From assembly GCA_025451845.1 (NCBI GenBank), contig JANWJS010000028.1, positions 92,189-156,188 of the forward strand: 64,000 bases of DNA, read 5' to 3'. The stretch comes from Steroidobacteraceae bacterium. GTDB lineage: Bacteria > Pseudomonadota > Gammaproteobacteria > Steroidobacterales > Steroidobacteraceae. Below are positions 7,360 to 7,759 of this stretch, piece after piece (positions within the stretch are counted from its first letter, which is position 1; each line of letters starts with the position of its first letter). The position numbers and the translations under genes were made by a program. The notes under the pieces were generated by a model. The model saw only the letters and a list, made by a program, of their open reading frames with translations. It searched no databases and was not told where the DNA came from.

Positions 7360-7371
7360 GGGCATATCCTC

Positions 7372-7423
7372 AAAAAAACTCGTCGCGATGAGGCGTCGCC
7401 AACCCTTAAGGCAGCGTGCGACG
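7372..7423 (-). promoter_or_regulatory. possible attenuator: competing stems ending in a U7 tract
   Basis: On the minus strand one CGTCGC element (7423-7418) can pair with either of two downstream GCGACG copies, at 7399-7394 or 7386-7381. The distal pairing ends two bases before seven consecutive Ts (7378-7372), directly upstream of the transporter ribosome-binding site GAGG. This is the architecture of a terminator with a competing alternative stem. The loop of the distal stem is long (about 31 bases), so termination efficiency is uncertain. Confidence 0.4.
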
Positions 7424-7522
7424 CGCGCCGTGTCGAGAGCCCTTCATGGAGATGCGGGGAAGCCGGCTTCGGCTCCCGTGCCGTCGCGACCTTAGTCGTC
7501 GTACGGCATGCACCGCCCCGCG

Positions 7523-7555
7523 TCAGATGGCGAGACGGTGAGGAGGCGGGTTCAT
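7523..7555 (-). CDS. putative leader peptide MNPPPHRLAI upstream of the Nramp gene
   Basis: A ten-codon ORF, ATG at 7555 and TGA at 7525-7523, in the leader of the transporter gene. It encodes three consecutive prolines at codons 3-5, a known ribosome-slowing sequence. A weak AGGG lies about 10 bases upstream of the ATG. The codons after the prolines (CGT CTC GCC) contain GTCTCGCC, one arm of a stem with upstream GGCGAGAC. A ribosome paused on the prolines would cover that arm. Proline-codon leader ORFs control the Mg2+ transporter genes mgtA and mgtCB of Salmonella; the parallel here is inference. Confidence 0.5.
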   Translation of the reverse strand: MNPPPHRLAI

Positions 7556-7594
7556 AGGACCGCGACCCTGTGACGTCTCGCCGTCAGACGGCGA
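7529..7594 (-). promoter_or_regulatory. mutually exclusive hairpins in the Nramp leader
   Basis: A perfect hairpin, CGCCGT-CTG-ACGGCG read on the minus strand (7593-7579), overlaps GGCGAGAC (7582-7575), which can instead pair with GTCTCGCC (7536-7529) inside the leader ORF. Both cannot form at once. The 13-mer CGTCAGAYGGCGA also occurs twice as a direct repeat (forward 7521-7533 and 7582-7594, one mismatch). With the downstream competing stems this looks like a conformational RNA switch. Confidence 0.45.
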
Positions 7595-7759
7595 CGAAGC
7601 GGCTACTAGGGCTTGGGTCCATAGAGTTCTTGGGTGGCTGAGCTGGGCGCGGATTCTTTTGGCTCGAGGCTCGAAAGTCAAGAGGCATGTTGATTGAAAG
7701 CCCAAGTCCCATAGACCCCTGCTGCACGAGATTGCCCAGCCCGTCCCGCGCGATGTGGG

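Follow-up and report, generated by a model that had tools for sequence, protein, structure and literature searches.

The window analysed here, a 64,000-nucleotide stretch of Steroidobacteraceae DNA, carries an Nramp-family transporter gene preceded by a leader with a short conserved ORF, a promoter and a set of overlapping RNA pairings (Table 1). The host assembly is 4.4 Mb, and the named genomes closest to it are metagenome bins of Gammaproteobacteria. Nramp proteins are classically Mn2+ or Fe2+ carriers. Among solved structures, the product of this gene matched EleNRMT (7qia) at E=1e-47, as compared to ~1e-12 for MntH chains. Its binding-site residues are DxxA-TxxA; the TxxA fits the NRMT signature DxxG-TxxA/T (PMC8806188), while the DxxA of helix 1 differs from DxxG. 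By sequence the transporter is NRMT-like with one binding-site difference, and Mg2+ transport is predicted. Mg2+ is likely to be the transported ion rather than Mn2+, because orthologues bear a Mg2+-responsive M-box and the best structural relative transports Mg2+. A class-wide protein search found a close orthologue in only 2 of 369 sampled genomes; the gene is therefore patchy in its distribution, and the comparison of leaders rests on loci taken from genome contigs.

Table 1. Features of the transporter gene and its leader (window coordinates).
Feature	Position	Strand	Observation
Nramp-family transporter gene, NRMT kind, 550 aa	5713..7365	-	PF01566 E=2e-79; EleNRMT is the closest structure
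CGTCGC/GCGACG copies and U7 tract, proposed attenuator	7366..7430	-	Not conserved
Hairpin 3:4, CACCGTCTCGC with GCGGGGCGGTG	7511..7540	-	94% of cells paired, 19 sequences
ORF MNPPPHRLAI of the sequence-only reading	7523..7555	-	Found in the window only; probably not a gene
Alternative pairing 2:3, GGCGAGACG (7582-7574) with CGTCTCGCC (7537-7529)	7529..7582	-	The longer pairing of the sequence-only reading
Hairpin 1:2 across the leader-ORF stop codon, TCGCCG/CGGCGA	7578..7594	-	Contains the previously noted hairpin 7579-7593
Conserved leader ORF MDPSPSSRFVAV, acidic/proline N-terminus	7584..7622	-	Same start, stop and length (12 codons) in 15/15 distinct same-genus leaders
Sigma-70-like promoter TTGACT-17-AAGAAT, conserved	7653..7681	-	9-11/12 matches in 15/15 leaders

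The ORF encoding MDPSPSSRFVAV overlaps hairpin 1:2 and extends beyond the region of the sequence-only reading (7366-7605), which had overlooked it. Across the 15 distinct leaders of the genus the consensus peptide is MDP[SG]P[ST]SR[FC][IVF]A[VADE], with DPxP at residues 2-5 (DPSP or DPGP throughout the genus). The distance from the end of the -10 box to the ORF start is near-constant in these leaders, at 29-31 nt, and MDPSPSSRFVAV is therefore expected to come first among the ORFs of the transcript. Its ribosome-binding site is weak (CCCAAGAACTCT). Nucleotide conservation across the ORF is strong, and the codon changes seen among the genus leaders are by themselves no proof of coding. When the leader DNA pattern was searched in the genomes of the genus it occurred in 14 places, 13 of which were the Nramp leader and one an unrelated sequence (G022). 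Taken together, sequence comparison makes a conserved leader ORF ahead of the Nramp gene well supported, and this ORF is presumably translated. As in leaders of the MgtL/MgtQ type, a short ORF with an acidic residue and proline or a similar residue in its first codons stands before a transporter gene, here of the NRMT type with predicted Mg2+ transport.

The complete leader has a better fold than its dinucleotide-shuffled versions (z = -3.0). Hairpin 1:2 is built from the last codons of MDPSPSSRFVAV, its stop codon and the bases just 3'; the hairpin noticed in the sequence-only reading is thus present and conserved in the genus, as a stop-codon hairpin. Among the 15 leaders 100% of its cells are paired, including one compensatory C-G to U-A change. 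Pairing 2:3 shares arms with hairpins 1:2 and 3:4 and, as had been claimed, excludes the stop-codon hairpin in the window. The claim carries over to the relatives only in part, where 81% of cells are paired, two pairs have changed on both sides, others are broken, and the pairing is disrupted in about half of the genus. Predicted folding puts 2:3 and 3:4 near balance in the window (p23 0.60, p34 0.40) and only there; 2:3 is appreciable only in the sub-branch of the window. For most of the genus its predicted share is negligible, and where the pairing is broken a stalled ribosome does not change this prediction. In 8 of the 14 genus leaders examined, the transporter ribosome-binding site is predicted to pair with an element 61-87 nt 5' of the gene start with a probability of at least 0.77; no such pairing is predicted in the window leader, and its rut-like C-rich stretch is unremarkable, leaving a Rho site there unsupported. 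Support for alternative folds within the genus of the window is mixed.

The sequence-only reading had proposed that ribosomes pause on the PPP codons of a different ORF, MNPPPHRLAI, which starts at 7555, 67 bases 3' of the start of MDPSPSSRFVAV at 7622, and that pausing, perhaps under low Mg2+ or low proline/EF-P activity, frees the upstream hairpin and shifts a distal CGTCGC/GCGACG attenuator. The window does contain this ORF together with the hairpin and the alternative stem, with folds close to balance. However, an ATG is missing at that position in the 14 other same-genus leaders and MNPPPHRLAI has no SD before it; as an ORF confined to the window among 15 distinct leaders it was rejected, and pausing on PPP is left unsupported. 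The conserved ORF MDPSPSSRFVAV has no PP run on which a PPP/EF-P or tRNA-Pro attenuator could act. The single CGTCGC element said to pair with two GCGACG copies was a selection, since the leader holds two CGTCGC (7596, 7423) and three GCGACG (7487, 7399, 7386), with a chance expectation of ~0.22-0.25 per 280 nt. The U7 tract does lie before the transporter ribosome-binding site, and the distal repeats around it align poorly among same-genus leaders. A scan for intrinsic terminators in the leader found none, with 0.3 expected. We regard this mechanism as scarcely credible. The broader idea, that an Nramp gene has a leader peptide like those of mgtA/mgtCB, gains support, from a different ORF and a different motif.

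Alternative pairing is clearer in other lineages. In six leaders from Pseudomonas, Aquitalea and Paludibacterium, a set that includes two close relatives, codons 8-12 of the leader ORF pair with a downstream segment; 91% of cells are paired and 4 of the 11 pairs have changed on both sides. The covariation score of this pairing was reached by 0 of 500 shuffles, and slid versions of the pairing showed no changes on both sides. The helix arms in Pseudomonas are GGTCACAC/GTGTGACC. After the downstream arm, three leaders (L039, L060 and L065) continue with a complement to the transporter ribosome-binding site, such as CCTCCAAA with TTTGGAGG in L060 and CTTCCCC with GGGGAAG in L039. A stretch of C over G is also strong in the Pseudomonas and Chromobacteriaceae leaders. 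In these two groups the covariation gives good support to alternative RNA folds coupled to ORF translation.

We searched the leader for known regulatory RNAs and found no Rfam family at its gathering threshold. A known riboswitch was rejected, as Magnesium-II, at 12.7 bits against a gathering score of 40, was the sole match to a Mg2+ riboswitch, and two microRNA families gave weak sub-threshold matches. Elsewhere in the window there is a cobalamin riboswitch (RF00174, 36013-36197, + strand, 115 bits). M-box control of Nramp-related Mg2+ transporters (NrmT) is already known (PMC4072509). We found the M-box (RF00380) in six actinobacterial orthologues (L081, L090, L097, L098, L106, L133) and none in the window, its leader or any proteobacterial locus scanned. 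Streptomyces-type orthologues (L082, L090, L097, L101, L107) also have a short ORF with a strong SD, MDCSCSSPGH..., which sits 3' of the M-box in L090 and L097; in these two loci the M-box and the ORF may act jointly.

Many Proteobacteria have short ORFs resembling MDPSPSSRFVAV ahead of the same transporter. We defined a motif of [DE][PS]x[PS] and kin within the first 8 residues of an ORF of 8-45 aa with an ATG and an SD. Since the motif was written after viewing the data, the counts in the first 75 loci are not blind: it occurred in 26 of 75 distant Nramp loci, as compared to none of 75 for the reverse strand and an average of 0.3 over 100 shuffles, and was missing from 49. Among 14 plasmid loci fetched later, some of which are closely related to members of the first set and three of which share one Pandoraea/Burkholderia leader, 10 had the motif (0/14 on the reverse strand). 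None of 16 Nramp paralogues had it. A further locus (L125 in G066) gave no usable leader from the part read. The leader ORFs begin MDPYPSS in Aquitalea, MDPWPSI in Paludibacterium, MDPSSSR in Pseudomonas, MEPGPSS or MESGPST in Burkholderiales, MDSPSRP in Ralstonia, MPDPEPC or MPDSDSY in Paraburkholderia, MNDSDSC in Burkholderia and MDEGPSC in Bradyrhizobium. These look-alike sequences suggest that sensing of low Mg2+ through a faltering ribosome may be widespread ahead of this transporter.

Motif density is 0.41 per kb in upstream regions versus 0.008 per kb elsewhere, where seven matches fell in 903 kb of the same loci. One of the seven lies before a second Nramp copy (L064), those in L047 and its near-twin L051 lie ~1 kb ahead of the Nramp gene or operon, and those in L036, L049, L066 and L067, the near-twin, lie ahead of OprB-type porin genes; L051 and L067 were placed by likeness only. 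A separate short ORF of the acidic/Ser kind stands upstream of the OprB-type porin genes close to Nramp (L049 270, L066 329, L036 5180), for example MDSCSSRSSIAH and MPEPPSCC.... Perhaps the porins and the Nramp transporter form a joint Mg2+ regulon.

Other elements were observed near the distant loci. In Burkholderia and relatives the interval from the acidic leader ORF to Nramp contains another conserved short ORF, of ~45-50 aa (MNFGLLLSNLPHVTESR...), at about -250 from the Nramp start (L083, L094, L104, L109), and similar ORFs occur in L063, L064, L086, L087, L091, L096 and L100. A gene annotated as a hisE-type phosphoribosyl-ATP diphosphatase is directly 5' of Nramp in Methylobacterium (L126, 621-1106), and a comparably placed ORF in Bradyrhizobium (L047, 1668) resembles a hisE-type gene. 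Rhizobiales-2 RNA (RF01723) is found 5' of Nramp in Bradyrhizobium at L047 469-554 and at L072 948-1029, the latter near threshold.

Codon usage in the leader ORFs is unusual. Within the first 8 codons, AGT encodes 56 of 94 serines as compared to 63 of 1087 in the Nramp genes, and CCT encodes 31 of 84 prolines as compared to 46 of 983, counts that are inflated by shared ancestry. The over-use of AGT and CCT suggests a constraint on the early codons in addition to that from the peptide. This codon constancy, the conservation of hairpins 1:2 and 3:4 and the strong nucleotide conservation over the ORF would fit a metal sensor made of RNA alone, a riboswitch to which the ORF is incidental. Distant lineages, however, keep the peptide logic near an SD with different DNA (DPSP, EPGP, DPEP, DSDS), and the Rfam searches described above also argue against a riboswitch, making this explanation unlikely.

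The signal for the peptide could instead be charged tRNA-Pro or tRNA-Ser, or a transition metal, for example Mn2+, as the richness of the motif in proline and serine and the classical Mn2+/Fe2+ substrates of the family might indicate. There is a precedent in mgtP, which senses charged tRNA-Pro (PMC8092293). Most of the motifs nevertheless contain an acidic residue, Ser and Pro interchange within them, and Mg2+ riboswitches occur on orthologues, so that we consider a tRNA or transition-metal signal improbable. Conservation by itself does not demonstrate sensing, and a constitutive short ORF might, for example, keep the leader open or couple translation. Such a role is very unlikely given that the acidic/Pro/Ser N-terminus recurs among unrelated leaders within a single transporter clade and is absent from the paralogues.

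The reading toward which we lean, with moderate confidence and by analogy to enteric leaders, is that MDPSPSSRFVAV is a leader peptide of the MgtL/MgtQ type and that low Mg2+ makes its translation falter, switching on the Nramp-related Mg2+ transporter. Starting from the ORF, promoter and hairpins revealed by comparison, we infer that MDPSPSSRFVAV is translated and responds to Mg2+, and in which direction and by what readout the switch works. At ample Mg2+ the ribosome would reach the MDPSPSSRFVAV stop codon, open hairpin 1:2 and cover segment 2, allowing hairpin 3:4 to form and keeping the transporter low. At low Mg2+ the acidic/proline N-terminus would make the ribosome unstable or slow, as with MgtL and MgtQ; faltering in the first codons would let the leader RNA refold, and transporter expression would rise. 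Candidate readouts are Rho-dependent termination and masking of the transporter ribosome-binding site.

The mgtP and mgtM leaders of mgtCB are, like MDPSPSSRFVAV, short ORFs ahead of Mg2+ genes. They differ in sensing charged tRNA-Pro and ATP, and the conserved ORF described here is free of proline runs. In MgtL, ribosomes are lost on EPDP at low Mg2+ through ribosome destabilisation (PMC11282234). The leader described here resembles that of mgtA in Salmonella and E. coli in having a short ORF before a Mg2+ transporter gene, overlapping RNA hairpins, and acidic and proline residues at positions 2-5 (EPDP in MgtL, DPSP here). It differs in that the gene encodes an Nramp-related transporter and not a P-type ATPase, in the peptide past residue 5 and in lineage, and the Rho-dependent readout known for MgtL is here a candidate. 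MgtQ depends on Asp2 and Glu5, with stems 1:2, 3:4 and 2:3, and also acts by ribosome destabilisation (PMC8092293). The likeness to MgtQ, of mgtC-mgtB in Salmonella, lies in acidic codons near the start, in a choice between 1:2 plus 3:4 and 2:3 with segment 1 inside the ORF, and in a complement of the transporter ribosome-binding site in relatives of the window. Unlike MgtQ, which is encoded in an intergenic region, the ORF here is in a 5' leader, hairpin 3:4 does not contain the ribosome-binding site, and pairing 2:3 is weak in most of the genus. As for M-box genes (RF00380, NrmT), the same transporter group is under Mg2+ control, with the M-box on several actinobacterial orthologues; the proteobacterial loci differ in having a leader ORF in the M-box position. 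In agreement with the sequence-only reading, our search of a library of open-access papers turned up no earlier description of such a leader for an Nramp gene.

Mg2+-sensing leader peptides in the cited literature are limited to enteric bacteria and their mgt genes. A wider reading, which we hold evenly between acceptance and doubt, is that a large group of Proteobacteria outside the Enterobacterales uses low-Mg2+ leader peptides, in the M-box position, to control Nramp-related Mg2+ transporters and adjacent OprB-type porins. The peptides would share a logic in spite of their varied sequences: the first codons would specify an acidic residue plus Pro/Ser, often using AGT and CCT. If this is true, translation abortion would be a general Mg2+ sensor that replaces the M-box in Proteobacteria on the same transporter clade, and the natural variants (DPSP, EPGP, DPEP, DSDS, DPSSS) would be a ready set from which to learn which nascent chains cause ribosomes to fail at low Mg2+.
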